DNA from: Klebsiella pneumoniae | GTDB lineage: Bacteria; Pseudomonadota; Gammaproteobacteria; Burkholderiales; UBA3065 | Direction: 5' to 3' | NCBI GenBank assembly: GCA_945897555.1 | Contig: CAMDGF010000004.1 | Coordinates: forward strand, 1 to 41,449 | DNA: 41,449 bases | Program-made: the position numbers and the translations under genes | In this document: piece by piece, positions 705-30,839 of the stretch | Numbering within the stretch: the stretch's first letter is position 1 | Layout of the letters: each line of letters starts with the position of its first letter | The notes under the pieces: model-generated | Databases searched by the model: none | What the model saw: only the letters and a program-made list of their open reading frames with translations | What the model was told of the DNA's origin: nothing

Positions 705-1370
705 TCAGGGCTCTGGGCTCGAATCGCGGAACGAGACGTCCTGGATGATCCCGTGGCGGGCCGCCAGACGCACCAATTGCGCTGCGTTGTCCACACCGAG
801 CTTCTGCCGGAGCGCCGATTGGTGGTTCGCCACCGTCTTGGCTGTGAGGTTGAGGATGCGAGCGATCTCGCTCACGGCTTGGCCCTGAGCGAGCAGCCGG
901 AACACCTCGAACTCGCGTTCGGTGAGCACGCTCACCGGGTCGGGATCGGTGCCGACGCGCTGCAGGGCGAGCCGCTCGGCCATGGCGTGATCCACATAGC
1001 TGCGGCCAGTCGCTACGCGACGGATGGCCTCCACCAACACCTCCGGCGCTGCCGACTTGGCGATGTAGCCACGTGCGCCAGCGGCCAGTGCCCGGCTGGC
1101 GAACACCACGTCTTCGTGCATGCTGAATACCAGCACGCGCGCCGCAGGCTCGCGCGCCACCATGCGGCGAGTGATCTCGATGCCACTGATGCGCGGCAGC
1201 GAGATGTCCATCACGACCACTTGCGGGCGCAGTTCGCAGAACAAGCGGTAGGCGTCTTCGCCATTGCCCGCTTCGGCAAGGATGCGGATGTCATCGGTCT
1301 GATCCAGCAATCGGCGATAGCCCTCGCGGACTACAGCGTGGTCGTCTACCAGCAGCACATCGATGGTCAT
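705..1370 (-). CDS. LuxR/NarL-type response regulator
   Basis: This is a 221-residue two-domain regulator. The receiver domain (about residues 1-120) shows the acidic pair D9/D10, the phospho-acceptor D55 in VVMDISLP, and K105 in GYIAKS. A LuxR-type helix-turn-helix occupies about residues 148-210 (LTEREFEVFRLLAQG, then KTVANHQSALRQKLG). The ATG at 1370 overlaps the kinase stop by four bases (ATGA), so the two are translationally coupled and form a cognate pair. A longer in-frame opening upstream exists but would run antisense-free through the kinase 3' end and lacks receiver homology. By family it resembles the AgmR/ErbR/ExaE regulators of PQQ-dependent alcohol oxidation; that specificity is inferred. 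Confidence 0.9.
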   Translation of the reverse strand: MTIDVLLVDDHAVVREGYRRLLDQTDDIRILAEAGNGEDAYRLFCELRPQVVVMDISLPRISGIEITRRMVAREPAARVLVFSMHEDVVFASRALAAGARGYIAKSAAPEVLVEAIRRVATGRSYVDHAMAERLALQRVGTDPDPVSVLTEREFEVFRLLAQGQAVSEIARILNLTAKTVANHQSALRQKLGVDNAAQLVRLAARHGIIQDVSFRDSSPEP

Positions 1371-2335
1371 GCGGGCGTCTCCTCGGGGTGCAGGGGCAGC
1401 AGAAAGTGCAGCGATGTGCCGGTCGGTGAGGGGCTCTCGGTGCTCGGTGAGATCTGCAGTCGGCCGCCGAGTAACTCGGCGCGCTCGCGCATGCCGGTCA
1501 GCCCCAGCCCCGGGCGGAACCGGGGTGGCAGTCCGCACCCATCATCGATGATGTGTAATCCAAGCGTGGTCGGCGTCTCGAGACCCAAGCGGATACCCAC
1601 GCTGCGCGCGCCCGAATGGCGTGCCACGTTGGTCAGCGCCTCCTGCACCAGCCGGAACACGGTCATGTTGAGTGCCTCACCCAATTGTGGCAGGTCAGGC
1701 TCGATGGCCAGCGTGTAGCCCACTTCGGGGCGCTGCTGTTGCCAGCCATCCACCATGTGCTGCAAGGCCTCCTCGAGGCCCAGTTCGTCGAGTCCGACCG
1801 GCCGCAAGCGATGCATGAGTGTCCGTACCACCTCGTAGACATGTCGCGCCATGCCGCGGATGCGCTCGATCGCCTCGGTGTCGCGCGCAGCCCCTTCGAG
1901 CTGCCGCCGCAGGCCCACGGCCTCGATCTCGATGGCATTGAGGTACTGGCCGAGTTCGTCGTGCAGCTCGTGGGCGATGTCCTTGCGCTCACGCTCCTGC
2001 ACCTCGAGGCCGCGCCGCGTCAGGTCGCGGTTCTCCTCCAGTGAGCGCGCGAGGTCGGTTTCGAGTTCGACCCGCAGGGCGAGTTCGCGGCGCAGCTCGA
2101 TCCAGCGCCGCCAAGAGAACCAGCCAAGGCCGATGGCGAGCACCAGTAGCGTGGTGCGTAACTCGTCCGCCTGTACGAATTCGAAGTCGGCGGTCCAGCG
2201 GTTGATGCGCTCGTTGAGTTCGAGGGCCGAGGCTGCGAGAAAAGCGATCGTCGTGACAAGGACCACCAGCGCAAGGTCGCGCAGTGTCCGCAGATGGGCC
2301 TCGCCGGCCAAGCGTTTGATCTCGTCCAGATTCAC
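1367..2335 (-). CDS. Sensor histidine kinase, NarX/UhpB (HisKA_3) type
   Basis: This 322-residue kinase has two predicted membrane helices (about residues 20-38 and 61-77) separated by only some 22 residues rich in acidic and aromatic side chains, so there is almost no periplasmic sensor domain. A coiled linker leads to the HisKA_3 dimerisation domain with the phospho-acceptor H122 in DIAHELHDELGQ. The HATPase domain follows, with the N box (QEALTNVARH, N236), DDGCG (264-268) and a GLGLTGMRER lid near 277-286. The start is a GTG with a weak ribosome site. It lies 21 bp after the propeller gene and overlaps the response regulator, giving a complete two-component system. The signal is unknown; sensing in or near the membrane or through a partner is likely. 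Confidence 0.9.
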   Translation of the reverse strand: MNLDEIKRLAGEAHLRTLRDLALVVLVTTIAFLAASALELNERINRWTADFEFVQADELRTTLLVLAIGLGWFSWRRWIELRRELALRVELETDLARSLEENRDLTRRGLEVQERERKDIAHELHDELGQYLNAIEIEAVGLRRQLEGAARDTEAIERIRGMARHVYEVVRTLMHRLRPVGLDELGLEEALQHMVDGWQQQRPEVGYTLAIEPDLPQLGEALNMTVFRLVQEALTNVARHSGARSVGIRLGLETPTTLGLHIIDDGCGLPPRFRPGLGLTGMRERAELLGGRLQISPSTESPSPTGTSLHFLLPLHPEETPA

Positions 2336-2356: not shown

Positions 2357-3376
2357 CTAGCGCTGCAGCACCGCGCCCCACGGTGCATGAGGCAGGCGGA
2401 TGTCACCCGCGGGCCGCAGGTCGAAAGTGTCGAACAGGTGAGCGGTGGCATGTTGCCGGTCGGACACCAGCAGGCGTTTGCCGTTCTCACTCAGCCCCAA
2501 CTGCGCCGGCGCGCGGCCGGCGGGAACGTGCTTGACGATGCGGCGGCTCGAGGTGTCGATTGCCGACACTGTTCCGCTGGTCTGATTGGCCACGTACAAG
2601 CGGCGCCCGTCAGGTGATGCAGCGAGCGCTGTGGGGCGCAAGCCCGCAGCCATGCTGGCCTTGTGCACCCAGGCGCGGCTATCCAGCACCTCGAGGCGGT
2701 GGCTGTCGGGTATGGCCAGCCACACCTCGTGACCGGCGAACACCATCGCCGCCGGTTGTCCGCTGATCCGGATGCGCGTGTGCGGTCGGCCATTGTGCAG
2801 ATCGATGATGGTCACAAGGTTCGAGCCCTTGTGCGAGATGACCAGCCAGCGGCCATCCGGCGAGAAGGCGCAATCTTCTGGGGGCAGAGCATCGATCGAC
2901 ACGCTGCCGACCACTCGGCGTTCAAGCAGGTCGATGTAGACCACCCGGGCGGCTCGCTCCGCGCATACGGCGAGTTGTTGGCCATCCCTAGACAGCCAGG
3001 CCGCCTCTGGCCCCTCGGGAACACTCACGCTCCAGTGGGTGCGCTCATCTCGCAGATCGATGCCCACCACGCGGTTCAGATGGCTATCAACGAGCAGGAG
3101 CGTGCGGTTGTCGCGCGTGAGCAGGGCCGTTTCGATGCGCTGGCCCAAGGGGGGCTCGACATTGAAGGTGCGCACGGTGCGCACCGGGGCGAGGCCGGCC
3201 AAGGTCACACTGCTGCCCGACATCGAAGGCAACCATGCCATCTCGGCGGCAGCGGCGGGCGCCCGCATGCAGCCCAGAGCAAGGGTGACTATGAGCATGC
3301 TGGCGGCACGCCAGCGCTTTGAGGGTGGGGTGGCGGCGCGTTCTGACAGCCGTGGGGGCACAAAGTGGGCAGGCAT
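2357..3376 (-). CDS. Secreted YVTN-family beta-propeller protein
   Basis: The product is about 339 residues if translation starts at the ATG at 3376. Other starts at 3412 (TTG) and 3298 (ATG) are possible because none has a clear ribosome site. A signal-like hydrophobic segment ends in APAAAA. The rest is a run of roughly 40-residue blade repeats with the YVTN pattern, for example RLYVANQTSGTVSAID and FSPDGRWLVISHKGSN. Such periplasmic propellers are frequent partners of PQQ-dependent alcohol dehydrogenase systems, where they are usually called PQQ-dependent catabolism-associated propellers. Here it is the first gene of the operon with the kinase and regulator and could be the sensory partner of the sensor-poor kinase. 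That role is inference. Confidence 0.75.
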   Translation of the reverse strand: MPAHFVPPRLSERAATPPSKRWRAASMLIVTLALGCMRAPAAAAEMAWLPSMSGSSVTLAGLAPVRTVRTFNVEPPLGQRIETALLTRDNRTLLLVDSHLNRVVGIDLRDERTHWSVSVPEGPEAAWLSRDGQQLAVCAERAARVVYIDLLERRVVGSVSIDALPPEDCAFSPDGRWLVISHKGSNLVTIIDLHNGRPHTRIRISGQPAAMVFAGHEVWLAIPDSHRLEVLDSRAWVHKASMAAGLRPTALAASPDGRRLYVANQTSGTVSAIDTSSRRIVKHVPAGRAPAQLGLSENGKRLLVSDRQHATAHLFDTFDLRPAGDIRLPHAPWGAVLQR

Positions 3377-3432
3377 ATCAGGATGCTCACCCCCAAGGCC
3401 CGCGCGCTCCAAGGCAAAACTCCGGCGATGGC

Positions 3433-3479: not shown

Positions 3480-3501
3480 AAAAACCCCGCCATGGGCGGG
3501 G
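3480..3501 (-). terminator. Rho-independent terminator of the PepSY gene
   Basis: Read on the minus strand, CCCCGCC pairs with GGCGGGG around a 3-base loop (3495-3501 with 3485-3491) and is followed by five T. It ends the minus-strand PepSY gene and separates it from the propeller operon. Confidence 0.85.
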
Positions 3502-3535
3502 TCTGGGTATGAACCGAACAGTCCGACGAAGCGGC

Positions 3536-4027
3536 TCAGCCTTCGCCGATCTGCACCACCTCGACCGAGGACTCGACCACCTTTCCAGTGGTAGCGTCGA
3601 CCTCGACCTTGTATTCCTTGCCGTCGGTGCCCTTGATGTCGAACTCGTAGGATGCCGAACCGTTGGGCTCGATCTCGTACTCGGTCTCGACCACGGTGCC
3701 CGGGTGGACCTTGAGCGCGGCAGCCTTGGCATCGGCTTCGCTGACCTTGGCCTTGGCGGTCCAGCGGGCATCCGTCGGGCTGACTTCCTGCTCGACTTCG
3801 GTGATCTTGGCGCCATCGGCTTGGCACTCGACGTCCCACGCGGTGCCATCGGCCTTCTGGATGTCGAATTCGTAGACGGTGGCCTTGTCTTCGGTCTTCA
3901 CTTCGACCTTGACGATCTTGCCGGGGTGGACCTTGAGCGCGGCTGCGGCGCAGGCCGAAAGGCTGTCGTGTGCGTGGGCGGCGAAAGGTGCCAGGGCCAG
4001 TGCGGTGGCGATAAGGGTCTTCTTCAT
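3536..4027 (-). CDS. Periplasmic protein with two PepSY domains (lanpepsy-like candidate)
   Basis: This 163-residue protein has a clear signal peptide ([19 protein letters not shown], cleavage after residue 19) and an AGGAGA ribosome site. The mature part holds two PepSY repeats, roughly residues 25-80 and 95-158. Each has a helix ending in KVHPG followed by strands of the YEFDI type. It is strongly acidic: I count about 29 Asp/Glu against 16 Lys/Arg. Small double-PepSY periplasmic proteins of this size include lanpepsy, a lanthanide-binding protein described in the methylotroph Methylobacillus flagellatus. That parallel and the methylotroph setting make metal binding plausible, but generic PepSY proteins are common. 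It is a single-gene unit with its own terminator and a dyad operator candidate 72 bp upstream. Confidence 0.85.
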
Positions 4028-4091: not shown

Positions 4092-4106
4092 CGGGAAAAA
4101 TTCCCG
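4092..4106. promoter_or_regulatory. Candidate operator, copy 2 (perfect dyad)
   Basis: CGGGAAAAATTCCCG is a perfect inverted repeat with 6-base arms around AAA. It is centred 72 bp upstream of the PepSY start codon. Sister copies lie at 3433-3447 and 4235-4249. Confidence 0.5.
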
Positions 4107-4328: not shown

Positions 4329-4961
4329 TTGCGCATCGCCTGTGTGGGGGGGCTTCCCCCCCGTTTATTGGCCGATCTAGGCGATCTGGCCGAAGCCCCG
4401 CCGCAGCTGTTCAGCTCGGCCGATGGCGCCTTGCGTTTGCCACGCGATGCCCAGCCTGATGTCTGGGTGACTGAGGTGTTTTTGCCCGGGGTCTCGGGCT
4501 TTGAGTTCGCGCGCCGGGTGTCGGCACGCGCTTCGGCCGCTCCGGTGGTGGTGGTCACCCGCCTTGCTGCGGTGTGGCCGCTGGCGCGGGCGGTGAGGGC
4601 GGGTGCCCGCGGCTATCTCCCGCTACCGGTGGCGCCAGAGCGCCTCTCGCTGGCGCTTCATCGACTGCTGGATGGCGGCGCCTTCCGCACCGTGCCAGAG
4701 AGCGTCGGGGCCGATCTGCAACTGCAGCAGGCGGGGGTGCTTGACCTGCCCCCGCGACGCTTCGAGGCCTTGCACCTTCTGCTGCAGGGCGCCGATGCCA
4801 CAGGCACGGCGCTCGCCATGAGCATCAGCCCGCGCAGCGCGGCCGACTACCGCCGGGGGCTCAGGCGCGATCTGAGCCTCGCTGGAGTGCCAGATCTTGA
4901 GCGCCTCGCCGGGCTGCTCGGGGCCGGTTTCTACGGCCCCTGCCAGAGCCCGTCCGACTGA
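4329..4961 (+). CDS. Atypical response regulator: degenerate receiver plus LuxR-like C-terminus
   Basis: The 210-residue product starts at a TTG with AAGG eight bases upstream. The first 120 residues keep the receiver pattern (VWVTEVFLPGVSGFEF, then RAGARGYLPLPVAPERL), but the key residues are changed. The phospho-acceptor Asp is Glu (E in VTEVFLPG), the N-terminal acidic pair is missing (CVGGLPP), and the conserved Lys after GYL is Leu. Aspartyl phosphorylation is therefore unlikely. The C-terminal part (LPPRRFEALHLLLQG, then MSISPRSAADYRRGLRRDL) resembles a LuxR-type helix-turn-helix in degenerate form. It stands alone, divergent from the PepSY gene and convergent with pqqU. It may be a phosphorylation-independent DNA-binding protein or a partner of the 705-1370 regulator. 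Confidence 0.7.
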   Translation: MRIACVGGLPPRLLADLGDLAEAPPQLFSSADGALRLPRDAQPDVWVTEVFLPGVSGFEFARRVSARASAAPVVVVTRLAAVWPLARAVRAGARGYLPLPVAPERLSLALHRLLDGGAFRTVPESVGADLQLQQAGVLDLPPRRFEALHLLLQGADATGTALAMSISPRSAADYRRGLRRDLSLAGVPDLERLAGLLGAGFYGPCQSPSD

Positions 4962-4995: not shown

Positions 4996-7104
4996 TCAGA
5001 AGTTGTACTTTGCGGTGAAGCCTACCAGGCCGTTTCGGGTCGGGGCCGCCTCGATGTAGGCGGCATTGTTGACGCGCACCGAGCCGATGTATTCCTTGTC
5101 GAACAGGTTGTCGACGCGGGCAAACTCGGTGAAGGTCCAGTTGCCGACATTCTGGGTGAAGCCCATACGCAGGTTGGCCACCGTGTAGCCCGAAGCGACG
5201 TCGCTGTTGGCGTCGTTGGCGAAGACGCGGGTCGAGTGTCGCGCCTCGATGGCAGAGAAGAAACCATACTTTGGATACGTGAAAGCCACCTCGCCGTACA
5301 CGACGTTGCGTGCGGTGCCCGGCAAGCGGTTGCCAGCCTCATTCACTGTTGCGCCGGTATTGACGAAATCGTCGAGGTAACTGGCATCGAGGTAGGTGTA
5401 GGCAAGGTAGGCGTTGAAGTAATCGTTGATTCGGCTGTCGAGCGAGAGCTCGATCCCTTTGCGCCGTGTGCGTCCGCCGTTCTGGAAAACATTGCGTCCG
5501 GCGTCGCTGGCGGCGACCACGATCTCGTTCTTGGTATCGACGTGGAACAGCGCCAGCGTGGCGCGCGTGTCGCTGCCGAGGAATGCCTTTACACCGGTCT
5601 CGTAATTCTGGCTTGTGGCTGGCTTGAGACCAGGGTTCGGCCCTTCACCCGTGGTGGTCGAGAAGGCCGATTCGATGCTGGTCGGGGTCTCGAAGCCGGT
5701 CCCGTAGTTGGCGTACCAGTTCAGGGCTGGCGTGAGTTTGAATACCACCCCCGCGACGGGCAGGGTGCGGTTGAAGGTCGACGTGCCACTGCCGACCGGG
5801 TTGACGCTGGCGGGGATCTTGTCGCGGAAGGTCACCTTGACCTGGCTGTGGCGGATGCCGGCATGGAAACTCAGACGGCTGGTGGCCTCGAGCTCCCCCT
5901 GCGCATAGAAGTCGGTGTTGCGTGAGTCGTTGTCTTCGTTTCGCGCCCGGCGTCGCGAAGCTTCGCTTCCGGTCAGATTGGCGAGACCACCCGCGAGGTT
6001 GCGACTCGCATCGGTGGCGAGGCTCGACCGGTCGTCCAGCGCCTGCTCGTACGACACCCCCACGGTCATGCGTAAAGGCATGTCGGCGATGCTGTTGCGG
6101 TGCGAATAGCGCATGTCGGTACCTGCGAAATCGCGCTTGATCTGGCTTGCGCCCGGCAGCAGGTTGAAGTTGTTGCCAGCAAGGAATTGCAGGTTGGAGC
6201 GGTTGCCAGCGTAGGCCATCACACGGATGCTGTCGCCGTTCTCGAACAGGTGGTCGAGCACGGCGCCGGTCTGGTATTGCGAGCGCTCGACACGCGTACG
6301 GTAGACCAGCGACGAGGCAGCCGCAGCTTTGCGGTCAGCCTGATATTCGGCGAGGGTTAGCCCCTGTGGGTCGAGGGTGAGCGGCTGATCGAGGCCGCTG
6401 GCGGTCCAGGTCAGCTTGGTCCGCTCGGTGAGCTGGAAGCCGAACTTGACGTTGAAAGTGTCGCGCTTGACTGCACTGAAGTCACGGTAGCCGTCGGACT
6501 CGAAGTGGGCGGTATCGAAGACGTAGTTCCAGCGGCCGCTGCTACCCGAAACCTGCAGATTCTCGCGATGCGTGTTGTAGCTGCCGACCCAAGTGCTGGC
6601 CGACACGTCAGGGCGCGGGCCGCCATCTCGCGTGAAGATCTGCACCACCCCACCGGCGCTGTTGCCGTACAGCGCACTGAAGGGGCCACGCATCACTTCG
6701 ATCGACTTGGCCGAAGACAAGGCAAAGGTGGAGGTCTGGCCTTGGCCATCCGGGGTGGAGAGCGGGATGCCATCCTGGTAGATGCGGATGCCACGCACGC
6801 CGAATTGCGACCGCGCACCAAAGCCGCGGGTCTGGATCTGGGGGTCCTGCGCGAAGTTGGCGCGGTTGTTGGCGGTGATGCCCGGGATGCGGATGAGGCT
6901 CTCGGAGGCGTTCACTTGAGGCTGTGCGAACTGGATGTTCTGCGGCTCGATGACATCGATGGAGACCGGAAGGTCGAAGCTTGAGCGTGCTTCCCGCGTG
7001 GCGGTGACGACCACCGGCGACGACTGTGGCTCGACTGCCAGCACAGGAAAAGCCGCGGCGACGGCAGCGGCGAGGGCAATGGTTCGACAACCCGTAGGCA
7101 ACAT
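4996..7104 (-). CDS. pqqU: TonB-dependent outer-membrane receptor of the PqqU (YncD) type
   Basis: The 702-residue protein starts at an ATG with AGGA eight bases upstream; two earlier in-frame starts have weaker support. A signal peptide ending in LAVE precedes a TonB-box-like VVVTA segment. The plug domain (about residues 35-150) carries TRGFGARSQFGVRGIR, DGIPLSTPDGQGQT and EVMRGPFSALYGNSAGG, and the 22-strand barrel ends in the terminal Phe of KYNF. These plug motifs, GFETPTS and the VDNLFDKEYIGSV end closely follow Escherichia coli YncD (700 residues), now named PqqU and known to import the cofactor PQQ. The neighbouring propeller, two-component and PepSY genes fit a PQQ-dependent dehydrogenase theme. 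Another ferric-chelate ligand cannot be excluded. Confidence 0.8.
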   Translation of the reverse strand: MLPTGCRTIALAAAVAAAFPVLAVEPQSSPVVVTATREARSSFDLPVSIDVIEPQNIQFAQPQVNASESLIRIPGITANNRANFAQDPQIQTRGFGARSQFGVRGIRIYQDGIPLSTPDGQGQTSTFALSSAKSIEVMRGPFSALYGNSAGGVVQIFTRDGGPRPDVSASTWVGSYNTHRENLQVSGSSGRWNYVFDTAHFESDGYRDFSAVKRDTFNVKFGFQLTERTKLTWTASGLDQPLTLDPQGLTLAEYQADRKAAAASSLVYRTRVERSQYQTGAVLDHLFENGDSIRVMAYAGNRSNLQFLAGNNFNLLPGASQIKRDFAGTDMRYSHRNSIADMPLRMTVGVSYEQALDDRSSLATDASRNLAGGLANLTGSEASRRRARNEDNDSRNTDFYAQGELEATSRLSFHAGIRHSQVKVTFRDKIPASVNPVGSGTSTFNRTLPVAGVVFKLTPALNWYANYGTGFETPTSIESAFSTTTGEGPNPGLKPATSQNYETGVKAFLGSDTRATLALFHVDTKNEIVVAASDAGRNVFQNGGRTRRKGIELSLDSRINDYFNAYLAYTYLDASYLDDFVNTGATVNEAGNRLPGTARNVVYGEVAFTYPKYGFFSAIEARHSTRVFANDANSDVASGYTVANLRMGFTQNVGNWTFTEFARVDNLFDKEYIGSVRVNNAAYIEAAPTRNGLVGFTAKYNF

Positions 7105-7282
7105 GTGGCGTCCTGATGGAGAGTGGAGTTTTAGGAAGAGGGTCATGGCTGGCCGTCTGGGCACCAGCACGCGGCGCGCACCTTATCAGTCGCTCTTGAG
7201 CGAAGCCATAGCCCGAGGCCCATGAAAATCATGAATCGCGCTGCCGCTTATACTTGCGCGCCCCGGACACCTCGGCCACGGC

Positions 7283-18890: not shown

Positions 18891-18914
18891 ATGCATAAAT
18901 CTTTGCGATTGCAA
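18891..18914. promoter_or_regulatory. Candidate operator upstream of glyA sharing TGCATAAATC with the MarR-like gene
   Basis: TGCATAAATC at 18892-18901 is identical to 31237-31246, inside the inverted repeat at the MarR-like gene. It is followed by TTGC-GATT-GCAA (18903-18914), a second short dyad. Both are AT-rich islands in GC-rich DNA and lie about 50-70 bp upstream of the glyA -35 box. This suggests a shared regulator that could act as an activator here. Confidence 0.45.
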
Positions 18915-18963
18915 CCGGCGCCGGATTGCTGCACCTTTCGTCATGTTAAAGCGTGGGCTAACC

Positions 18964-18991
18964 TTGACAGTCTGCGCCCCGAGGCTAGAAC
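18964..18991 (+). promoter_or_regulatory. Candidate sigma-70 promoter of glyA
   Basis: A consensus -35 TTGACA (18964-18969) is spaced 16 bp from TAGAAC (18986-18991), which matches four of six -10 positions. Transcription would start near 18999 and leave a leader of about 105 nt. The leader is GC-rich with several possible stems but matches no riboswitch I recognise. Confidence 0.6.
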
Positions 18992-19104
18992 TCCGTAGAG
19001 GCCGTCCAACTTCCCGCCGGTGAACCGACCGGGGGGCGCGACGTCCCCTTCGGCGGCCCCGGCCACCGGACAAGACCACAGATTCGAACCGAGGAGATTC
19101 GTCA

Positions 19105-20391
19105 ATGACCCACCCTGCTGCGGGCTTCCAGACCTGTGCATTCCCCAACAACCTGTCGGTCGCCCAGGGTGATCCCGACCTGTGGGCCGCGATCCTGCAA
19201 GAAGCGCGCCGTCAGGAAGAGCACATCGAGCTGATCGCTTCCGAGAACTACACCAGCCCCGCTGTCATGCAGGCGCAGGGTTCGGTGCTGACCAACAAGT
19301 ACGCCGAGGGCTACCCCGGCAAGCGTTACTACGGTGGCTGTGAGTATGTCGACATCGTCGAACAACTCTGTATCGAGCGCCTCAAGCAGCTCTACAACGC
19401 CGATTTCGCCAACGTGCAGGCCAGCTCGGGCTCGCAGGCCAACCAAGCCGCCTTCCTCGCGCTGCTCAACCCGGGTGACACAATCATGGGCATGAGCCTG
19501 GCCGAGGGTGGCCACCTGACCCACGGCATGCACCTGAACATGTCGGGCAAGTGGTTCAAGGTGGTCAGCTATGGCCTCGACGGCAACGAAGTCATCGACT
19601 ACGACGCCATGGAGCGCCTGGCCCACGAGCACAAGCCCAAGCTGATCATCGCGGGCGCCTCGGCCTACTCGCTCAAGATCGACTGGGAGCGCTTCGCCAA
19701 CGTCGCCAAGGCCGTCGGTGCCTACTTCATGGTCGACATGGCGCACTACTCAGGCCTGATCGCCGCCGGTGAGTACCCCAACCCGGTGCCGTTCGCCGAC
19801 GTCGTCACCTCGACCACCCACAAGAGCCTGCGTGGCCCGCGTGGCGGCATCATCCTCACCAACAACGAAGAGATGGCCAAGAAGCTCAACTCTGCCGTCT
19901 TCCCGGGCGTGCAGGGTGGCCCGCTGATGCACGTCATCGCCGGCAAGGCCACCGCCTTCCACGAGGCGCTGCTGCCGTCGTTCAAGGCTTACCAGCAGCA
20001 GGTCAAGAAGAACGCCGCCGTGCTCGCCGAGACGCTCACTGCACGCGGTCTGCGCATCGTCAGTGGCCGTACCGAGAGCCATGTCATGCTGGTCGACCTG
20101 CGCGCCAAGGGCATCACCGGCAAGGAAGCCGAGCGCGTGCTGGGCGAGGCCCACATCACCTGCAACAAGAACGGCATCCCGAACGATCCGGAGAAGCCCT
20201 TCGTCACCAGCGGCATCCGTCTTGGCTCCCCCGCCATGACCACCCGTGGTTTCAAGGAAGAGCAGGCCGCACTGACCGCCAACCTCGTTGCCGACGTGCT
20301 CGAGGCCCCACACGATGCCGCTCGCATCGCTGCGGTCAAGGCGCAGGTCACCGAGCTGACCCGCGCTTTCCCGGTCTACGGCAACAACTGA
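19105..20391 (+). CDS. glyA: Serine hydroxymethyltransferase
   Basis: The 428-residue PLP enzyme has [26 protein letters not shown], the SGSQAN loop, [13 protein letters not shown] and the cofactor lysine K240 in [21 protein letters not shown] ribosome site precedes the ATG. It joins methylene-H4F and glycine to make serine, the entry step of the serine cycle. It has its own promoter candidate and is followed by a strong terminator, so it is at least partly transcribed alone. The coding sequence lacks rare codons and looks optimised for high expression. A second, housekeeping glyA may exist elsewhere. Confidence 0.97.
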
Positions 20392-20404
20392 CCGTTGTGT
20401 CTCG

Positions 20405-20436
20405 GGGCGCCCGGCTTGCGTCGGGCGCCCTTGTTT
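20405..20436 (+). terminator. Rho-independent terminator after glyA
   Basis: GGGCGCCCG (20405-20413) pairs perfectly with CGGGCGCCC (20422-20430) around an 8-base loop and is followed by TTGTTT. It separates glyA from sga. Confidence 0.8.
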
Positions 20437-20463
20437 GCTCTACACCCCTTTTCGCGCTTTAAA
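20434..20463 (+). promoter_or_regulatory. Weak candidate promoter of the sga operon
   Basis: TTTGCT (20434-20439) and TTTAAA (20458-20463) with an 18-bp spacer lie about 75 bp before sga. A promoter is expected here because a terminator follows glyA, but the match is modest. Confidence 0.35.
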
Positions 20464-20538
20464 TCAGTCTCAATCTGCATCAGCAAGCCAAAACGGCGTG
20501 CCCGCTGAGGCATCGCTCGTAACAAGAGGAGAATCCAA

Positions 20539-21735
20539 GTGGCTGGTCGTAATTTTCTGTTCGTTCCGGGTCCTTCCAACGTGCCCGACCGCGTCCTGCG
20601 CGCCCAGGTCGTCTCGATGGAAGACCATCGCTCGCCGAAGTTCCCGTCGTTGTGGGAGCAGATCGCGCCGGGCTTGAAGAAGCTGTTCCGCACCACCACT
20701 GGCACCCCGTTCGTCTTCCCGTCGTCGGGCACCGGCTGCTGGGAAGCCGCCGTCACCAACACGCTGAGCCCGGGCGATAAGATCCTTGCCTCGCGCTTCG
20801 GCCAGTTCAGCCACCTGTGGATCGACATGTGCACCCGCCTCGGTCTCGACGTTGAAGTGATCGACGTCGAGTGGGGCACCGGCGTGCCAGCCGACCAGTA
20901 CGCCGAACGCCTCAAGGCCGACACCGGCCACCAGATCAAGGCCGTGCTGGCTTGCCACAACGAGACCGCCACTGGCGTGAGCTCGGACATCGGTGCCGTC
21001 CGCAAGGCGCTCGACGATGCCAAGCACCCGGCATTGCTGTTCGTCGACACCGTCTCGGGCTTGGGCTCGATCGACTTCCGCTTTGACGATTGGGGCGTCG
21101 ACATGGCTGTCTCGGGCTCGCAGAAGGGCCTGATGCTGCCGGCCGGCCTCGGCGTGCTCTGCGCCAGCCAGAAGGCTCTCGAGCTGCGCACCACCGCCCA
21201 GATGAAGCGCTGCTACTTCGACCTCGGCGACATGATCAACGCCAACGCCACCGGTTACTTCCCGTACACCCCGGCACTGTCGCTGTTCTACGGCCTGATC
21301 GAGGCGCTCAAGGTCATCGAAGAAGAAGGCCTCGACAACATCATCGCCCGTCACACCTACCTGGCCGAGGGCTGCCGCGCCGCGGTGCAGAAGGGTTGGG
21401 GCCTGCAACTGTGCGCCAAGGCGCCGCAGTGGTACTCCAACACCGTCTCAGCCGTCATGGTGCCGGAAGGCTTCAACGGCGCTGACGTCATCTCGCGCGC
21501 CTACCACCGCTACAACGTGTCGCTGGGCGCCGGTCTGTCCAAGGTCGCCGGCAAGCTGTTCCGCATCGGCCACCTGGGCGACCTCAACGAGGTGCACCTC
21601 TCGGCCGGCATCGTCGGCGCCGAGATGGCCATGCTCGACGTCGGCATCAAGGTCCAGCCGGGCAGCGGTATCGCCGCCGCCAGCGAGTACTGGCGCAACA
21701 ACGAGCCGCCCGCGGGCCTGCTCAAGCGCTGGTAA
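20539..21735 (+). CDS. sgaA: Serine-glyoxylate aminotransferase
   Basis: This 398-residue class V aminotransferase starts at a GTG preceded by GAGGAG. It opens with FLFVPGPSNVPDRVLRA and has FPSSGTGCWEAA for cofactor phosphate binding, FVDTVSGLGSID, and the PLP lysine K196 in SGSQKGLMLPAGLG. Length and motifs fit the methylotroph enzyme. It transfers the amino group of serine to glyoxylate, giving hydroxypyruvate and regenerating glycine for GlyA. It is the first gene of the run sga-hprA-mtdA-fchA-gck-ftfL-mtkA-mtkB. The first four genes are in the same order as in Methylobacterium extorquens. Confidence 0.95.
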   Translation: MAGRNFLFVPGPSNVPDRVLRAQVVSMEDHRSPKFPSLWEQIAPGLKKLFRTTTGTPFVFPSSGTGCWEAAVTNTLSPGDKILASRFGQFSHLWIDMCTRLGLDVEVIDVEWGTGVPADQYAERLKADTGHQIKAVLACHNETATGVSSDIGAVRKALDDAKHPALLFVDTVSGLGSIDFRFDDWGVDMAVSGSQKGLMLPAGLGVLCASQKALELRTTAQMKRCYFDLGDMINANATGYFPYTPALSLFYGLIEALKVIEEEGLDNIIARHTYLAEGCRAAVQKGWGLQLCAKAPQWYSNTVSAVMVPEGFNGADVISRAYHRYNVSLGAGLSKVAGKLFRIGHLGDLNEVHLSAGIVGAEMAMLDVGIKVQPGSGIAAASEYWRNNEPPAGLLKRW

Positions 21736-21743
21736 GTCTGGAG

Positions 21744-21772
21744 CGCCCGGGCTTGCGTTGCAGGTCCGGGCG
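21744..21772 (+). other. Intercistronic hairpin between sga and hprA
   Basis: CGCCCGG (21744-21750) pairs with CCGGGCG (21766-21772) around a 15-base loop that begins GCTTGCGT, as in the glyA terminator loop. There is no T-run. It may be an attenuator, a processing or stability element, or a decayed terminator copy. Confidence 0.4.
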
Positions 21773-21828
21773 TCGCATCGAAGACAGGTCGGATCAACAG
21801 GTTGACCCGAACACTGATGGGAGGACCC

Positions 21829-22776
21829 ATGGAGCACGTTGTATTTCTGGACCGGCAATCGCTCAAGGCGAACGTCCGCAAGCCGAAGTTCGAGCACACC
21901 TGGGAGGAGCATGTTCAGACGCTCGAATCCGAGGTGGTCGAGCGCTTGAAGAACGCCACGGTGGCCATCACCAACAAGGTGCCCATCCGCCGCGCGACGC
22001 TGGAACAGCTGCCGAATCTCAAGATGATCGCGGTGGCTGCGACCGGGTATGACGTGATCGATGTGCCAGCCTGTCGCGAGCGCGGCGTGGCCGTGGCCAA
22101 CATCCGCAACTATGCGGTACACACCGTTCCTGAACACGCCTTCGCGCTGATCTTCGCCCTGCGCCGCAACATCATCGCCTACCGCGAGGATGTGCTCAAC
22201 GGCCGCTGGCAGGCGCAGGACCAGTTCTGCTTCTTCGACCACACCATCAGCGACCTCTACGGCAGCACCATCGGCATCTTCGGCGAGGGCGTGCTCGGTC
22301 AGGGCACCGCCAAGATCGCCAAGGCGCTCGGCATGCGCGTGCTGTTCGCCGACCACCCGCCGCCCAAGGCGCCCGACGTCGAGTTCACCGACCCGGACAC
22401 CGTGTTGCGCGAGTCGGACATCATCTCTCTGCACTGCCCGCTCACTCCGGAATCGCGTGGCTTCATCGGCCTCGAGCAGTTCCGCAAGATGAAGCGCAGC
22501 GCCATCCTCATCAACACCGCCCGCGGCGGTCTGGTGGACGAAGCGGCACTCAAGGAAGCGCTGGAGACCGGCCTCATCGCGGGTGCCGGCTTTGACGTGC
22601 TGACCAAGGAACCGCCCAAGGAGGGCAACCCGCTGCTGGACATCCGCACGCCCAATTTCATCCTGACGCCGCACGTGGCGTGGGCATCGGACGGTGCCAT
22701 GCAGTTCTTGGCCGATCAACTGATGGACAACGTCGAGCTGTTCATCGCGGGTACACCGCAGCATCTGGTGACCTGA
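21829..22776 (+). CDS. hprA: Hydroxypyruvate reductase (NADH-dependent, D-2-hydroxyacid dehydrogenase family)
   Basis: The 315-residue product starts at an ATG with GGGAGG upstream; the nearby in-frame ATG/TTG codons further 5' are not needed. It has VVFLDRQSL at the start, the dinucleotide fold GIFGEGVLGQG (149-159) and the catalytic set R232 in NTARGG, E261 in TKEPP and H282 in TPHVAWAS. It matches methylotroph HprA in length and wording of these motifs. It reduces hydroxypyruvate to glycerate, between Sga and glycerate kinase. It is 93 bp downstream of sga. Confidence 0.95.
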   Translation: MEHVVFLDRQSLKANVRKPKFEHTWEEHVQTLESEVVERLKNATVAITNKVPIRRATLEQLPNLKMIAVAATGYDVIDVPACRERGVAVANIRNYAVHTVPEHAFALIFALRRNIIAYREDVLNGRWQAQDQFCFFDHTISDLYGSTIGIFGEGVLGQGTAKIAKALGMRVLFADHPPPKAPDVEFTDPDTVLRESDIISLHCPLTPESRGFIGLEQFRKMKRSAILINTARGGLVDEAALKEALETGLIAGAGFDVLTKEPPKEGNPLLDIRTPNFILTPHVAWASDGAMQFLADQLMDNVELFIAGTPQHLVT

Positions 22777-22799
22777 CCCGCCTTTGGCCTGAACCACCT

Positions 22800-22816
22800 G
22801 CCCCGCACGTCGGGGC
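22800..22816 (+). other. Intercistronic hairpin between hprA and mtdA
   Basis: GCCCCG (22800-22805) pairs with CGGGGC (22811-22816) around CACGT, followed by TGTTCTC. It is a weak terminator or attenuator-like element. Confidence 0.4.
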
Positions 22817-22846
22817 TGTTCTCATCCTGAATATCGAGTACACGAC

Positions 22847-23701
22847 ATGAGCAAGAAACTCCTGTTCCAGTTGGACACCGACGCCATCGGCAACAGCTTC
22901 GACACGGTGGTCGCCTACGACGGCGGCGCCGACCACGTCATCGTCCACGGTGGCATCAACCCGCAGAACGTCGGCTTCCTCGTCGACGGCTGCATCTTTA
23001 CCCGCGGCGACAAGCAGAACACCGCCATCTTCGTGGGTGGCAGCAACCTCGCCGCTGGCCAGGAACTGTTCAATGCGGTACAGAAGAAGTTCTTTGCCAA
23101 GTTCCGCGTCTCGGTGATGCTCGATTCCAACGGTTCGAACACCACCGCCGCTGCCGGCGTGGCCTGCCTGACCAAGCACACCTCCGCCAAGGGCAAGCGC
23201 GCCGTCATCCTTGCCGGCACCGGCCCGGTCGGCCAGCGTGCGGCTGCCATGCTGGCGGGCGAGGGCGCGCAGGTGGTCATCACCTCGCGCACCGTCGACA
23301 AGGCGCAGGCTGCCTGCGACGACATCAAGGCACGCTTTGGTTACGACTGCATCGCCGCCGCCGGTGGCACGCCGGAAGAGCGCCTCGCCGCCATCCAGGG
23401 CGCGCACCTCGTCTTCTCCGCCGGTGCGGCCAGCAGCGAGCTGCTGCGCGAAGACGACTGGGCCAGCAGCCCGACGCTCGAGGTGCTCTGCGACGCCAAC
23501 GCCACCCCGCCGCTCGGCATCGCTGGCATCGGCATGGGCGACAAGGCGGTCGAGAAGCACGGCAAGATCGTTTACGGCGCGCTCGGTTTCGGCAACCTCA
23601 AGCTGGCGGTGCACCGTGCGTGCGTCGGCAAGCTGTTCGAGGCGGCCGATCAGGTCTTCGACGCCGAACAGGTCTACGCCGTTGCCAAGGGCATGGTCTG
23701 A
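22847..23701 (+). CDS. mtdA: NADP-dependent methylene-H4F / methylene-H4MPT dehydrogenase
   Basis: The 284-residue product matches MtdA. It starts LLFQLDTDAIGNSFDTVVAYDGGAD, continues with SNGSNTTAAAGVA and has the Rossmann segment VILAGTGPVGQRAAAMLA near 120-140. It ends with VYGALGFGNLKLAVHR. MtdA interconverts methylene- and methenyl-H4F with NADP(H); in the assimilatory direction it makes the methylene-H4F that GlyA uses. The presence of MtdA rather than FolD in this block is typical of serine-cycle methylotrophs. fchA follows after 25 bp. Confidence 0.96.
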   Translation: MSKKLLFQLDTDAIGNSFDTVVAYDGGADHVIVHGGINPQNVGFLVDGCIFTRGDKQNTAIFVGGSNLAAGQELFNAVQKKFFAKFRVSVMLDSNGSNTTAAAGVACLTKHTSAKGKRAVILAGTGPVGQRAAAMLAGEGAQVVITSRTVDKAQAACDDIKARFGYDCIAAAGGTPEERLAAIQGAHLVFSAGAASSELLREDDWASSPTLEVLCDANATPPLGIAGIGMGDKAVEKHGKIVYGALGFGNLKLAVHRACVGKLFEAADQVFDAEQVYAVAKGMV

Positions 23702-23726
23702 AGACGCAGTCGAGGGGCATAGAGTC

Positions 23727-24362
23727 ATGACGATGAAGCAACTTCCGGTCGAGCAGTTCCTCGACCAACTCGCCTCCAGCCAGCCCACGCCGGGTGGCGG
23801 CTCCGCTGCCGCCGTGATGGGCGCCATGGGTGCCGCCTTGGTGAGCATGGTGGCCAACCTCACCGTCGGCAAAAAGAAGTACGCTGAGGTCGAGCCGCAG
23901 GTGAAGGAGGTGTTGGCCGAGAGCGAGAAGCTCCGCGCCCAGCTCACCGCCGCGCTGCAGGAGGACGTCGCCGCCTTCGACACGGTGATGGCCGCCTATG
24001 GCCTGCCCAAGGATACGGACGAGCAGAAGGCCGCCCGCAGCGCCGCCATCCAGGCTGCGCTCAAGGAGGCCACGGAGGCGCCGCTGCACTGCGCCCGCCT
24101 CGCGCATCAAGTGTTGCCGCTGACGCTGCGTATCGCCGAGATCGGCAACGTCAACATCATCTCGGATGCAGGTGTGGCCGTGCTGGCCGCGCAGGCCGCC
24201 CTGCGCAGCGCCGTGCTCAACGTGTTTGTGAATGCCGCCGCGATCGAGGACAAATCATTCGCCCAGCCGCGCATGGACGAGGCTGAGCGCCTGATGGCTG
24301 AAGGTGCTGCGATGGACGCCAAGGTCTTCGGCTTCGTCAAGCAGACCATCCTCGGCAACTAA
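23727..24362 (+). CDS. fchA: Methenyl-tetrahydrofolate cyclohydrolase
   Basis: This 211-residue protein belongs to the FchA/formiminotransferase-cyclodeaminase family. The signature is FLDQLASSQPTPGGGSAAAVMGAMGAALVSMV, with a long helical bundle and NVNIISDAGVAVLAAQAAL near the C-terminal third. It interconverts methenyl-H4F and 10-formyl-H4F, linking FtfL and MtdA. It sits tightly between mtdA and gck (15 bp to the latter), clearly in the same transcript. Confidence 0.95.
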   Translation: MTMKQLPVEQFLDQLASSQPTPGGGSAAAVMGAMGAALVSMVANLTVGKKKYAEVEPQVKEVLAESEKLRAQLTAALQEDVAAFDTVMAAYGLPKDTDEQKAARSAAIQAALKEATEAPLHCARLAHQVLPLTLRIAEIGNVNIISDAGVAVLAAQAALRSAVLNVFVNAAAIEDKSFAQPRMDEAERLMAEGAAMDAKVFGFVKQTILGN

Positions 24363-24377
24363 GGACAGCGCCCGACC

Positions 24378-25661
24378 GTGACCATGGATCCCCGCAGCCT
24401 CCTCATCGATTCCTACAAAGCCGCGGTGGCTGCGGTCGATCCGCTGGTCATCTTGCCGCAGCACCTGCCCGAGCCGCCCAAGGGGCGCACCCTGGTGATC
24501 GGTGCCGGCAAGGCGGCCGCCTCGATGGCCGCGGCGGTCGAGCACCACTGGCCAGCCGACGCGCCACTTGAGGGCGTGGTCATCACCCGCTACGAGCACG
24601 GCATGCCGACCCACCGCATCCGCGTGGTGGAGGCTGGCCATCCGGTGCCGGACGAGAACGGCGAGGCGGCTGCGCGCGAGATCCTCGCCGCGGTGCAGAC
24701 GCTCGGCCCGGACGACCTGCTGCTGGCGCTGGTGTCGGGTGGTGGCTCGAGCCTGCTCAGCCTGCCGGTCGAAGGCATCTCGATGGCCGAGCTCAAGCAG
24801 GTCACCAAGGACTTGCTCAAGAGCGGTGCGCCGATCCAGGACATGAACACGGTCCGCAAGCATCTCTCGCTGATCCAGGGCGGTCGCCTCACCGCCGCCT
24901 GCAAGGCGCAGGTGCTGGCATTGGTCATCTCGGATGTCACCGGCGACGAGGCCACGCACATCGCGTCCGGCCCCTGTGCGCCGGACCCCACCACCTATGC
25001 CGATGCCGTGGCCATCCTCAAGCGCTGGGAGGTCACACCCCCGGCCAGCGTCGCCAAGGTGCTGGACGAGGGCGTGCGCGGCATCCGCGCCGAGACGCCC
25101 AAGCCGGGCGACCCGGTGTTCGCGCGCTGCGAGAACCGCGTCATCGGCACTGCCACCGGCATGCTCACTGCGGCCGCCGACTTCTTTGCCGTGCACGGCA
25201 TCGCCAGCGCGGTGCTGGGCGACTCGGTGACCGGCGAGGCGCGCGAGGTGGCCAAGGTCTATGGCGCGCTCGCCCGCGAGGTCCGCACCCACCAGCGCCC
25301 GTTCAAGGCGCCGATCGCGCTGATCAGTGGTGGCGAGTGCACCGTGACGGTCCGCGGCAACGGCCGCGGCGGCCGCTGCGCCGAGTTCCTCATGTCGCTC
25401 TGCATCGACCTCGATGGCACCCCCGATATGTATGCGCTCGCTGCCGATACCGACGGCATCGATGGCTCCGAGGACAACGCGGGTGCCTATCTGGGCCCGG
25501 ACAGCCTCTCCCGCGCGTCGGCCAAGGGCCTGCCAAAGGCGCTCGCCTTCCTCGAGAACAACGATGCCTACTCGTTCTTCGAGGCGCTCGATGACCTCAT
25601 CGTCACCGGCCCCACGCGCACCAATGTGAACGACTACCGGGTCATCCTGTTGACCCGCTGA
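24378..25661 (+). CDS. gckA: Glycerate 2-kinase (MOFRL family)
   Basis: The 427-residue protein starts at a GTG (an ATG two codons later is an alternative). It has VIGAGKAAASMAAA, LLALVSGGGSSLLSLP, RKHLSLIQGGRL, VISDVTGDEATHIASGPCAPDPTT and ISGGECTVTVRGNGRGGRCAE, all marks of the GckA/TtuD MOFRL family. In the serine cycle this enzyme makes 2-phosphoglycerate from glycerate, feeding enolase. In Methylobacterium extorquens gck is not part of the sga-mclA run; here it is placed between fchA and ftfL. Confidence 0.94.
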   Translation: MTMDPRSLLIDSYKAAVAAVDPLVILPQHLPEPPKGRTLVIGAGKAAASMAAAVEHHWPADAPLEGVVITRYEHGMPTHRIRVVEAGHPVPDENGEAAAREILAAVQTLGPDDLLLALVSGGGSSLLSLPVEGISMAELKQVTKDLLKSGAPIQDMNTVRKHLSLIQGGRLTAACKAQVLALVISDVTGDEATHIASGPCAPDPTTYADAVAILKRWEVTPPASVAKVLDEGVRGIRAETPKPGDPVFARCENRVIGTATGMLTAAADFFAVHGIASAVLGDSVTGEAREVAKVYGALAREVRTHQRPFKAPIALISGGECTVTVRGNGRGGRCAEFLMSLCIDLDGTPDMYALAADTDGIDGSEDNAGAYLGPDSLSRASAKGLPKALAFLENNDAYSFFEALDDLIVTGPTRTNVNDYRVILLTR

Positions 25662-25775
25662 AAGGGCAGGGAAGGCAGCGGCAGCGCCGGCAGGCGCACC
25701 GCTGTAGCAAGGTGGTACCGATACCGCGCCGCTACGGGGGCGCAGACAGAAAACCAGAGACTGAAGGAGACGGGC

Positions 25776-27446
25776 ATGGCCAGCGATATCGAGATCGCAC
25801 AGAAAGCAACGATGAAGCGCATCACCGAGGTGGCCGCCAAACTCGGCATCGCGGATGAGCACCTCGAGCCTTACGGCCACTACAAGGCCAAGGTCTCGCT
25901 GGACTACGTCGATAGCCTCAAGGGCAAGCCCGACGGCAAGCTCGTCCTCGTCACCGCCATCAGCCCGACGCCGGCCGGCGAAGGCAAGACCACCACCACC
26001 GTGGGTCTGGGCGACGCACTCAACCGCATCGGCAAGAAGACCGTGATCTGCCTGCGCGAGCCTTCGCTGGGCCCGGTGTTCGGCGTGAAGGGCGGCGCGG
26101 CGGGTGGCGGCTATGCCCAGATCGTGCCGATGGAGGACATCAACCTTCACTTCACCGGCGACTTCTCGGCCATCGCGCTCGCCAACAACCTGTTGTCGGC
26201 GATGATCGACAACCACATCAACCACGGCAACCAACTCGACATCGACCCGCGCCGCATCACCTGGAAGCGCGTCGTCGACATGAACGACCGTGCCCTGCGC
26301 GACATCGTCATCGGCATCGGCGGCACGGCCAATGGTTACGTGCGTCAAGATGGCTTCGACATCGTCGTGGCATCGGAGGTGATGGCGATCTTCTGTCTGG
26401 CCACCAGCGTCAAGGACCTGAAGAATCGCCTCGGCGACATCGTCATCGGCTACACCCGCGACCAGAAGCCGGTCCATGCGCGCGACCTCAACGCCCACGG
26501 CGCCATGACCGTGCTGCTCAAGGACGCGCTCAAGCCCAACCTGGTGCAGACGCTCGAGAACAACCCGGCCTTCGTGCACGGCGGCCCGTTCGCCAACATC
26601 GCCCACGGCTGCAACTCGGTCATCGCCACCCAGAGTGCGTTGAAGCTCGGCGAATATGTGGTCACCGAGGCTGGCTTCGGGGCCGACCTCGGCGCCGAGA
26701 AGTTCCTCGACATCAAGTGCCGCAAGACCGGCCTCATGCCCTCGGCGTGTGTGGTGGTGGCTACCGTCCGCGCGCTCAAGTACCACGGTGGCAAGGATGT
26801 GAAGGCGCTCAACACCGAGGACCTCGACGCGCTGGGCAAGGGCCTGGTCAACCTCGAGCGCCATGTCCACAACGTCACCACCCACTACGGCCTGCCGTGC
26901 GTGGTCTCCATCAACCGCTTCACCTTCGACACCGACGCCGAGATCGCCATGGTCACCGAGCGCATGAAGGCGCTGGGTGCCAATGTGGTGCTGGCCGAAC
27001 ACTGGGCCAAGGGGGGTGCCGGTGCCGAGGCGCTGGCGCACGAGGTGGTGCGTCTGGCCGAGGGTGCGAGCGCCCCGACCTTCGTCTACGAAGACAGCGA
27101 CAGCCTCTGGGACAAGATGAAGAAGGTCGCCACCAAGATCTACGGTGCCGCAGACATCAGCGCCCCGGCCAAGGTCAAGGCGCAGATCCAGGCCTGGCAG
27201 GACGCCGGCTACGGCAGCTACCCGATCTGTGTGGCCAAGACGCAGAGCTCGTTCAGCACTGACGCCACGGTGCGCGGTGCGCCGAGCGGCCACGTGGTCA
27301 ACATCCGCGAGGTGCGGCTGGCCGCTGGCGCGCAGTTCATCGTCATGATCTGCGGCGACATCATGACCATGCCGGGCCTGCCCAAGGTGCCCAGCGCCGA
27401 GAAGATCGACATCGACGACGACGGCAAGGTGGTCGGCTTGTTCTGA
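25776..27446 (+). CDS. ftfL: Formate-tetrahydrofolate ligase
   Basis: The 556-residue protein has the family's ATP-binding loop [18 protein letters not shown] (about 65-82), [33 protein letters not shown] and [13 protein letters not shown]. It ends at [16 protein letters not shown]. It matches the 557-residue methylotroph FtfL. It forms 10-formyl-H4F from formate and ATP, the gate by which formate carbon enters assimilation. A 114-bp gap with small hairpins separates it from gck; AAGGAG lies before the ATG. A separate promoter in that gap is possible but not evident. Confidence 0.97.
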
Positions 27447-27476
27447 GGCCACCCCGTCACTCTTCCGGGCAGAAAG

Positions 27477-27494
27477 CGGGCGCAACGACGCCCG
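27477..27494 (+). other. Intercistronic hairpin between ftfL and mtkA
   Basis: CGGGCG (27477-27482) pairs with CGCCCG (27489-27494) around a 6-base loop; no T-run follows. It is the third hairpin between genes of this run. Confidence 0.4.
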
Positions 27495-27552
27495 ACCGCC
27501 GGCCCCGGGTTGTTTTGGACCCGCAGATTTTTTGTTTGAAGGAGAGAAGCAA

Positions 27553-28731
27553 GTGGATATCCACGAGTATCAGGCCAAGGAGATCCTGGCCAAGTATGGC
27601 GTCGCGGTGCAGCCGGGCCGCGTGGCCTACACCCCCGAGCAGGCAGCCTTTGCTGCCACCGAACTCGGTGGCTGGCACTGGGCGGTCAAGGCGCAGATCC
27701 ACTCGGGCGCGCGCGGCAAGGCCGGCGGCGTCAAGCTGTGCAAGACCTACCATGATGTGCAGGAAGCCGCTGCCGGCATGATCGGCAAGCGCCTGGTCAC
27801 ACACCAGACCGGCCCCGAGGGCAAGCTCTGCGAGCGCGTCTACATCGAGGTCGCCGAGGCCTTCGAAAAGGAGCTCTACCTGGGCTTCGTGCTCGACCGC
27901 AAGGCCGAGCGCATCCGCGTCATCGCCAGCGCCGAAGGCGGCATGGAGATCGAGGAACTGGCCCAGACTGCACCGGAAAAGATCCTGCAGATCATCGTTG
28001 AGCCGGCAGTCGGCTTGCAGCCCTTCCAGGCCCGCGAGCTGGCCTTCGGCATGGGTCTGAACATCAAGCAGGTGCAGCGCGCGGTGTCGATCATCATGGG
28101 CTGCTATCGCGCCTTCCGCGAGAAGGACGCGACCATGCTCGAGATCAACCCGATGGTCGTCACCAAGGACGAACGTGTCATCGCTCTCGACGCCAAGATG
28201 AGCTTCGACGACAACGCCATGTTCCGTCTGCCGGACATCTCGGAGATGCGCGATCTGGCTCAGGAAGACCCGCGCGAGGCCGAAGCCAGCCAGCACAACC
28301 TGAACTACGTCGGCCTCGAAGGCGACATCGGCTGCATCATCAACGGCGCCGGTCTGGCCATGGCCACCATGGACACCATCAAGTACGCCGGCGGTGAGCC
28401 TGCCAACTTCCTCGACGTCGGCGGTGGCGCCAGCCCCGAGCGCGTCGCGGTGGCGTTCAAGCTGGTGCTCTCCGACCCGAACGTGTCGGCCATCCTGGTC
28501 AACATCTTCGCCGGTATCAACCGCTGCGACTGGATCGCCGAGGGTGTGGTGGCTGCGGCCAAGGACCTCAAGGTGCCGCTGATCGTGCGCCTGGTCGGTA
28601 CCAACTACATCGAGGGCCGCAAGATCGTTGAGAACTCGGGCCTGCCCATCATTGGCGCGGAGACTCTGCTCGAAGCCTGCGAAAAGGCCGTGGCTGCGGC
28701 GAAAGAACACCGCGCCAAGGCCGGCAAGTGA
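27553..28731 (+). CDS. mtkA: Malate-CoA ligase (malate thiokinase) beta subunit
   Basis: The 392-residue protein starts at a GTG ([17 protein letters not shown]) with GGAGAG upstream. It is an ATP-grasp subunit like SucC, with [36 protein letters not shown], and [14 protein letters not shown] with [15 protein letters not shown] near the C-terminus. The length and wording fit MtkA (390 residues in Methylobacterium). Together with MtkB it makes malyl-CoA from malate, CoA and ATP. Succinyl-CoA synthetase is the alternative by family, but the mclA and hprA context makes malate thiokinase far more likely. mtkB follows after 25 bp. Confidence 0.94.
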
Positions 28732-28756
28732 TCACCGGACCTGAGAGGACACAGAT

Positions 28757-29650: not shown

Positions 29651-29664
29651 GTCGCTGAGCGGGA

Positions 29665-29686
29665 GGGGGGCAGCAGCCCCCCTTTT
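29665..29686 (+). terminator. Rho-independent terminator after mtkB
   Basis: GGGGGGC (29665-29671) pairs perfectly with GCCCCCC (29676-29682) around AGCA and is followed by TTTT. It ends the sga-to-mtkB transcript. Confidence 0.85.
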
Positions 29687-29712
29687 CATTCGCACATTCG
29701 ATTACGTATAAA
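29685..29712 (+). promoter_or_regulatory. Candidate promoter of mclA
   Basis: TTCATT (29685-29690) and TATAAA (29707-29712) with a 16-bp spacer lie between the mtkB terminator and mclA, in an AT-rich patch. The -35 is weak. A promoter is required here if the terminator is efficient. Confidence 0.5.
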
Positions 29713-29786
29713 GGCGTGCTGGCTACCGGTCAGTCCGCCAATCACCCGCCGGGCCGCTGGGTCCGGTGCATCGTCAGGAGATACAC

Positions 29787-30761: not shown

Positions 30762-30839
30762 GCTTCACGGCTGATCCCACCGGGGGTGCGACAGGGTCGT
30801 GCCCGCCCCGGCGGATGAGAGTCACCGCTACAAGCAATA

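Follow-up and report, generated by a model that had tools for sequence, protein, structure and literature searches.

Background

The locus described here raises the question of whether a small, acidic, secreted protein with two PepSY domains handles lanthanides for the PQQ-dependent dehydrogenases of a methylotrophic betaproteobacterium. A sequence-only reading of this stretch of DNA (the window, 41,449 nucleotides) had proposed that it does, likening the protein to LanPepSY of Methylobacillus flagellatus, reportedly the subject of Hemmann et al. 2023. That lanthanide interpretation is largely supported by the analysis presented here.

Very few lanthanide-binding proteins are known, and LanPepSY is among them. 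Its binding of these metals has been reported (PMC11845868, PMC12482762), with micromolar affinities (PMC11899968); it has up to four metal sites and also binds Ca2+ (PMC11845868). The LanPepSY family and its spread in methylotrophs, with further members in methane oxidisers, are already known (PMC12482762). New here are the occurrence of a LanPepSY member in a lineage that uses the serine cycle and apparently XoxF only, and a palindromic box common to its promoter and that of xoxF. The family thereby gains a freshwater host with a small genome, a methylotroph that should depend on its lanthanide supply if, as it appears, XoxF is its only such enzyme.

Results

The lanP-like gene and its product

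The gene, referred to here as lanP-like, runs on the minus strand from an ATG at position 4027 to position 3536 and encodes 163 aa; the same reading frame had been listed earlier without a strand. Its features are as follows.

3536 to 4027, minus strand: lanP-like gene, LanPepSY homologue, secreted double-PepSY protein (open reading frame, Pfam, PDB match, tree, dN/dS)
3968 to 4027, minus strand: signal peptide, residues 1-20, with AHA cleavage site (read by eye; low N-terminal pLDDT in AlphaFold2)
3794 to 3952, minus strand: PepSY domain 1 (genome profile search, 29.2 bits, over cut-off)
3572 to 3748, minus strand: PepSY domain 2 (genome profile search, 58.2 bits)
3482 to 3504, minus strand: intrinsic terminator of the lanP-like gene (10-bp hairpin and T-run, 3' of the stop codon)

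The physical description in the sequence-only reading was borne out. By eye, the N-terminus looks like a Sec-type signal peptide that would be cleaved at AHA, and both of the claimed PepSY repeats were placed by Pfam (E 6.9e-22, two stretches) as well as by the genome profile search. In a genome of 1.81 Mb and 98.5% completeness, that search found no second PepSY gene. The acidic bias is exactly as claimed: the mature protein (residues 21-163) has 29 Asp/Glu and 16 Lys/Arg, with a pI of 4.5. The gene is also the lone unit that had been described, lying between its own terminator (hairpin and T-run at 3504-3482) and a divergent gene at 4329; a single operon with the downstream beta-propeller gene was rejected, as the terminator intervenes.

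The lanP-like protein has orthologues in four sister species, with 76-85% identity. Pairwise dN/dS across the five genus members is 0.12-0.32, which indicates that the gene is real and constrained. Where sister-species records carry names, these are metagenome bins assigned to Betaproteobacteria or Rhodocyclaceae, and the titles of two give a pond and a lake as the source; no match to this DNA was found in the plasmid collection. AlphaFold2, given 73 aligned sequences, predicted a duplicated unit of a helix and a four-stranded sheet (pLDDT 90.6, pTM 0.80); the model made without the alignment was poor (pLDDT 70) and was not used. A VIA-align search against a PDB copy of April 2026 ranked PepSY folds at the top (CD1622 lipoprotein, YpmB and YpeB; Z 8-11), and the entry 9vy3 was absent from its results.

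Kinship with LanPepSY

By sequence, the top match among solved structures was a 153-residue chain present in PDB entries 9vy3-9vya (8 entries, 21 chains; E 2.2e-49), to which the lanP-like protein is identical at 87 of 141 aligned residues (62%). The chain is named 'Propeptide, PepSY amd peptidase M4' in the database. Its sequence is encoded twice at 100% identity, 143,032 bp apart, in a one-contig Methylobacillus genome of 2,971,517 bp, which we take, from its size and its large duplication, to be that of M. flagellatus KT, the source of LanPepSY. Because this KT-like genome encodes the 9vy3 sequence within a 175-aa product, and a lanpepsy construct of D24-E175 has been used (PMC11899968), the chain is very probably LanPepSY, an identification that is based on the encoding genome and not on the entry title.

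In a tree of 40 proteins, the lanP-like protein groups with proteins of Methylophilus and Methylotenera in a clade of 13 rows (99/97). This clade is nested in a 31-row clade that holds LanPepSY, and 40%-identical double-PepSY paralogues lie outside it. At three loci (L033, L034 and L035) a second double-PepSY paralogue of about 40% identity was seen, alongside a protein of the LanPepSY type elsewhere in each genome.

Twenty-four acidic residues of the lanP-like protein are Asp or Glu in at least 80% of the 73 aligned sequences, and all 24 are acidic in LanPepSY; 25 of the 29 acidic residues are common to the lanP-like protein and 9vy3. Acidity alone proves nothing, because generic single-domain PepSY proteins already match domain 2 at 5-9 of its 12 acidic positions. 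Generic PepSY proteins (PF03413) also have the PepSY fold in common with the lanP-like protein, but they have one domain and are 35-46% identical to it over about 70 aa. Four acidic residues, E128, D135, E138 and E142, are missing from almost all of the 11 single-domain PepSY proteins compared. Closer similarity to generic PepSY proteins, which had been named as a result that would count against the lanthanide interpretation, was not found: the protein lies in the LanPepSY clade and retains these four residues. With 62% identity to LanPepSY over both domains, the lanP-like protein is, on sequence grounds, a well-supported member of its family, and the gene is probably an orthologue or near-orthologue of that for LanPepSY (LanP).

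Both proteins are small, secreted and acidic (pI 4.5 for the lanP-like protein, 4.4 for LanPepSY), have two PepSY domains and occur in a methylotroph with XoxF. They differ in length (163 aa against 175 aa) and in host, since the lanP-like gene belongs to a serine-cycle betaproteobacterium in which MxaF was not found among the TIGR03075 matches. The gene differs in context too: it adjoins a histidine kinase/NarL-type regulator pair and a PqqU-like receptor, and an exact GGGAANNNTTCCC box lies upstream of it, whereas this exact box is absent upstream of the KT lanpepsy gene.

Another periplasmic lanthanide binder is lanmodulin (LanM) of Methylorubrum extorquens, which is a proposed carrier (PMC12482762). 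The lanP-like protein, a predicted periplasmic lanthanide binder, would resemble it in this respect; however, LanM is an EF-hand protein of unrelated fold, whereas the lanP-like protein matches PepSY and no EF-hand family in Pfam. A PF13202 search of the genome found no EF-hand protein over the Pfam cut-off, and so there is no sign of lanmodulin in it.

XoxF and other PQQ enzymes of the host

The earlier description of the host as a serine-cycle methylotroph is plausible from the open reading frames in the window, whose translations, judged by eye, resemble glyA, sgaA, hprA, mtdA, fchA, gck, ftfL, mtkAB and mcl. The translations place a compact serine-cycle cluster, from glyA to mcl-like genes, at 18900-30800.

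The absence of XoxF would have spoken against the lanthanide interpretation, but the genome encodes it, and so does each of the four sister species tested. In the genome itself, xoxF is split by a contig break: its N-terminal part ends contig C12 and its C-terminal part, followed by a MoxJ-type gene, ends contig C30. The enzyme is complete in 4 of 4 sister species, where it is 96-98% identical to the XoxF of one of them (G001) and has the WDFD motif, which holds the second Asp of lanthanide-type dehydrogenases. An ExaF-like PQQ dehydrogenase with a WDYD motif is encoded on contig C6; it and XoxF would be the lanthanide-dependent PQQ alcohol dehydrogenases of the host. PqqC is also present.

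Among 100 genomes of the order, XoxF was found in 10 of the 12 with a strong family member and in 9 of the 88 without one (Fisher p 3e-7); counted by genus, the figures are 5/6 and 5/62 (p 1.4e-4). Two genomes (G042 and G077) run against this pattern, with family members and no XoxF at the threshold used; both contain several PQQ dehydrogenases of other kinds, among them some that show a WDxD motif.

Gene neighbourhood in the window and in relatives

The genes that surround lanP-like in the window are as follows.

705 to 1370, minus strand: NarL/LuxR-type response regulator, candidate box binder (open reading frame and profile; 70-91% identical in four sister species)
1367 to 2335, minus strand: histidine kinase (HisKA_3/HATPase), probable partner of the regulator at 705-1370 (profile matches)
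2357 to 3412, minus strand: secreted beta-propeller protein (closest NCBIfam model TIGR03866, PQQ-dependent catabolism-associated, with a score under the cut-off)
4329 to 4961, plus strand: divergent atypical response regulator (profile; Glu replaces the phosphoacceptor Asp, by eye)
4996 to 7170, minus strand: TonB-dependent receptor nearest PqqU (NF041535, 548 bits, below the cut-off of 1200)

No peptidase gene was recognised beside lanP-like among the neighbouring open reading frames and their profiles. Throughout the genus, lanP-like is located between the divergent atypical regulator and the run of beta-propeller, kinase and NarL-type genes, and TonB receptors flank the locus on one side or on both. 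The kinase and regulator can be likened, by type only, to PedS2-PedR2 of Pseudomonas putida, a lanthanide-responsive two-component system (PMC12997753), as a histidine kinase and a LuxR/NarL-type regulator near PQQ-dehydrogenase-associated genes. In the divergent regulator, PDVWVTEVFLPG has Glu at the phosphoacceptor site, where the sister copies have Glu or Gln, and for this reason the protein may be locked in one state. The PqqU-like receptor, in a genome with PqqC, might serve PQQ re-uptake; its interpretation as a sign of PQQ auxotrophy was rejected, given that PqqC.

Relatives of LanPepSY occur mostly in methylotrophs. At 13 loci (Methylophilus, Methylotenera and similar, mostly Methylophilaceae), a dehydrogenase with the lanthanide-type motif HDEWDYDG is encoded about 1.7-2.2 kb downstream of the family gene, while in Methylophaga and allied gammaproteobacteria it lies immediately 3' of a TonB receptor. 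At five loci of the latter group (L111, L092, L098, L099 and L104), the receptor directly upstream of the lanpepsy gene has the N-terminal motif TTPLHGVGLP and is possibly a LanA-like receptor for lanthanides or a lanthanophore.

A palindromic box common to the lanP-like and xoxF promoters

Two boxes were located between lanP-like and the divergent regulator gene.

4093 to 4105, no strand: palindromic box GGGAAAAATTCCC, predicted operator common with xoxF, 66 bp upstream of the lanP-like start codon
4236 to 4248, no strand: degenerate second box GGGAAAAACTCCT with one mismatch (weak)

Alignment of the five upstream regions from the genus revealed one conserved stretch, which reads CGGGAATTTTTCC(C/T)G in most. 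The pattern GGGAANNNTTCCY occurs at two sites only in the 1.81-Mb genome, 66 bp 5' of lanP-like and 131 bp 5' of xoxF, and in the sister species G001 it is again confined to these two promoters; the backwards pattern, used as the control, gave 1-6 matches per genome. Because the box was first found at the lanP-like gene, only the xoxF site counts as evidence, and by our own estimate (250 bp in 1.8 Mb) the chance of a random match no more than 250 bp upstream of xoxF is near 1.4e-4. In the other three sister species, the xoxF promoter has the box with one mismatch at the same aligned position.

We regard it as unlikely that the box, instead of being a lanthanide operator, serves a general regulator or arose by chance; such a reading would bear on the regulatory claim only. 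It would account for the frequency of the relaxed form in Methylobacillus (6-17 per genome, where the control pattern gave 2-7) and for a match in genome G003 between fabG and acpP/fabF-like genes that has no evident link. Against it stand the two sole sites in each of the two genomes and the common position in five xoxF promoters, as well as the other genes at which the box is found. It is exact upstream of a second TonB receptor in G003, with a one-mismatch copy in the genome of the window; it lies upstream of lanpepsy genes in 4 of 6 Methylobacillus species, by a histidine kinase/response regulator/TonB cluster of KT, and upstream of a WDFD dehydrogenase gene of M. arboreus. The box was present at 9 of 80 family loci, compared with 1 of 80 for the control pattern, although four of the nine come from the window's own genus. 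A partial literature search found no known GGGAA box tied to methanol dehydrogenase promoters.

Discussion

We favour, with a probability of about 0.65, the explanation that lanP-like is an orthologue or near-orthologue of LanPepSY that buffers periplasmic lanthanide for PQQ dehydrogenases and is co-controlled with xoxF by a common operator. The protein would be exported to the periplasm and fold into two PepSY domains, in which conserved Glu/Asp-rich strands would form carboxylate sites holding several Ln3+ ions. Lanthanide would enter the periplasm via a TonB-dependent receptor, be buffered by the lanP-like protein and be made available by it to XoxF and the ExaF-like enzyme. That the metal is passed on to XoxF, and not just buffered or stored, is a step that we infer. 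Expression would be coupled to that of xoxF through the operator, for which the adjacent NarL-type regulator (705-1370) is, from its neighbourhood, the most likely binder.

A protein that binds lanthanides in order to store or detoxify excess Ln3+, with no supply to XoxF, is in our judgement an unlikely alternative. It would be in keeping with a review of the original work, according to which M. flagellatus lanpepsy had no direct effect on XoxF induction or expression, on uptake or on growth (PMC11845868), and micromolar affinities at up to four sites are more in line with buffering or storage than with a dedicated chaperone (PMC11899968, PMC11845868). The operator common with xoxF points instead to joint use, as does the synteny with genes of the xoxF type, but this argument is not decisive, because a store would be co-regulated too. 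A generic periplasmic PepSY protein unrelated to lanthanides, whether an inhibitor of secreted peptidases or a Ca2+ or envelope-stress protein, is highly improbable: a lanthanide role is not known for most PepSY proteins, single-domain members have part of the acidic pattern and LanPepSY too binds Ca2+ (PMC11845868), yet the identity to LanPepSY spans both domains, the four family-specific acidic residues are retained, the mostly methylotroph relatives are linked to XoxF-type genes and TonB receptors, the box is common with xoxF, and no peptidase gene was recognised beside lanP-like.

Returning to lanP-like as a buffer co-controlled with xoxF, we propose tentatively, at slightly less than even odds, that the kinase/NarL-type pair and GGGAANNNTTCCY make up a small lanthanide/methanol regulon of lanpepsy, xoxF and a TonB receptor. 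The box would then act as a lanthanide-responsive operator in methylotrophs of the Betaproteobacteria, and the regulon would be conserved across this freshwater genus and partly in Methylobacillus and Methylobacter. Being nearly confined to lanP-like and xoxF, it offers a direct handle on lanthanide/methanol sensing in betaproteobacteria and on the genes of the regulon.

Two further observations concern the promoters with the box. The only other copy in genome G002 (locus L213, 1501-1513) lies about 115 bp upstream of a gene that, by eye, resembles those for secreted glucose/sorbosone dehydrogenases, and its product is possibly another PQQ enzyme. The five xoxF promoters of the genus (L005 and L141-L144) all carry a second conserved inverted repeat, GTTACA-N14-TGTAAC, just downstream of the box.
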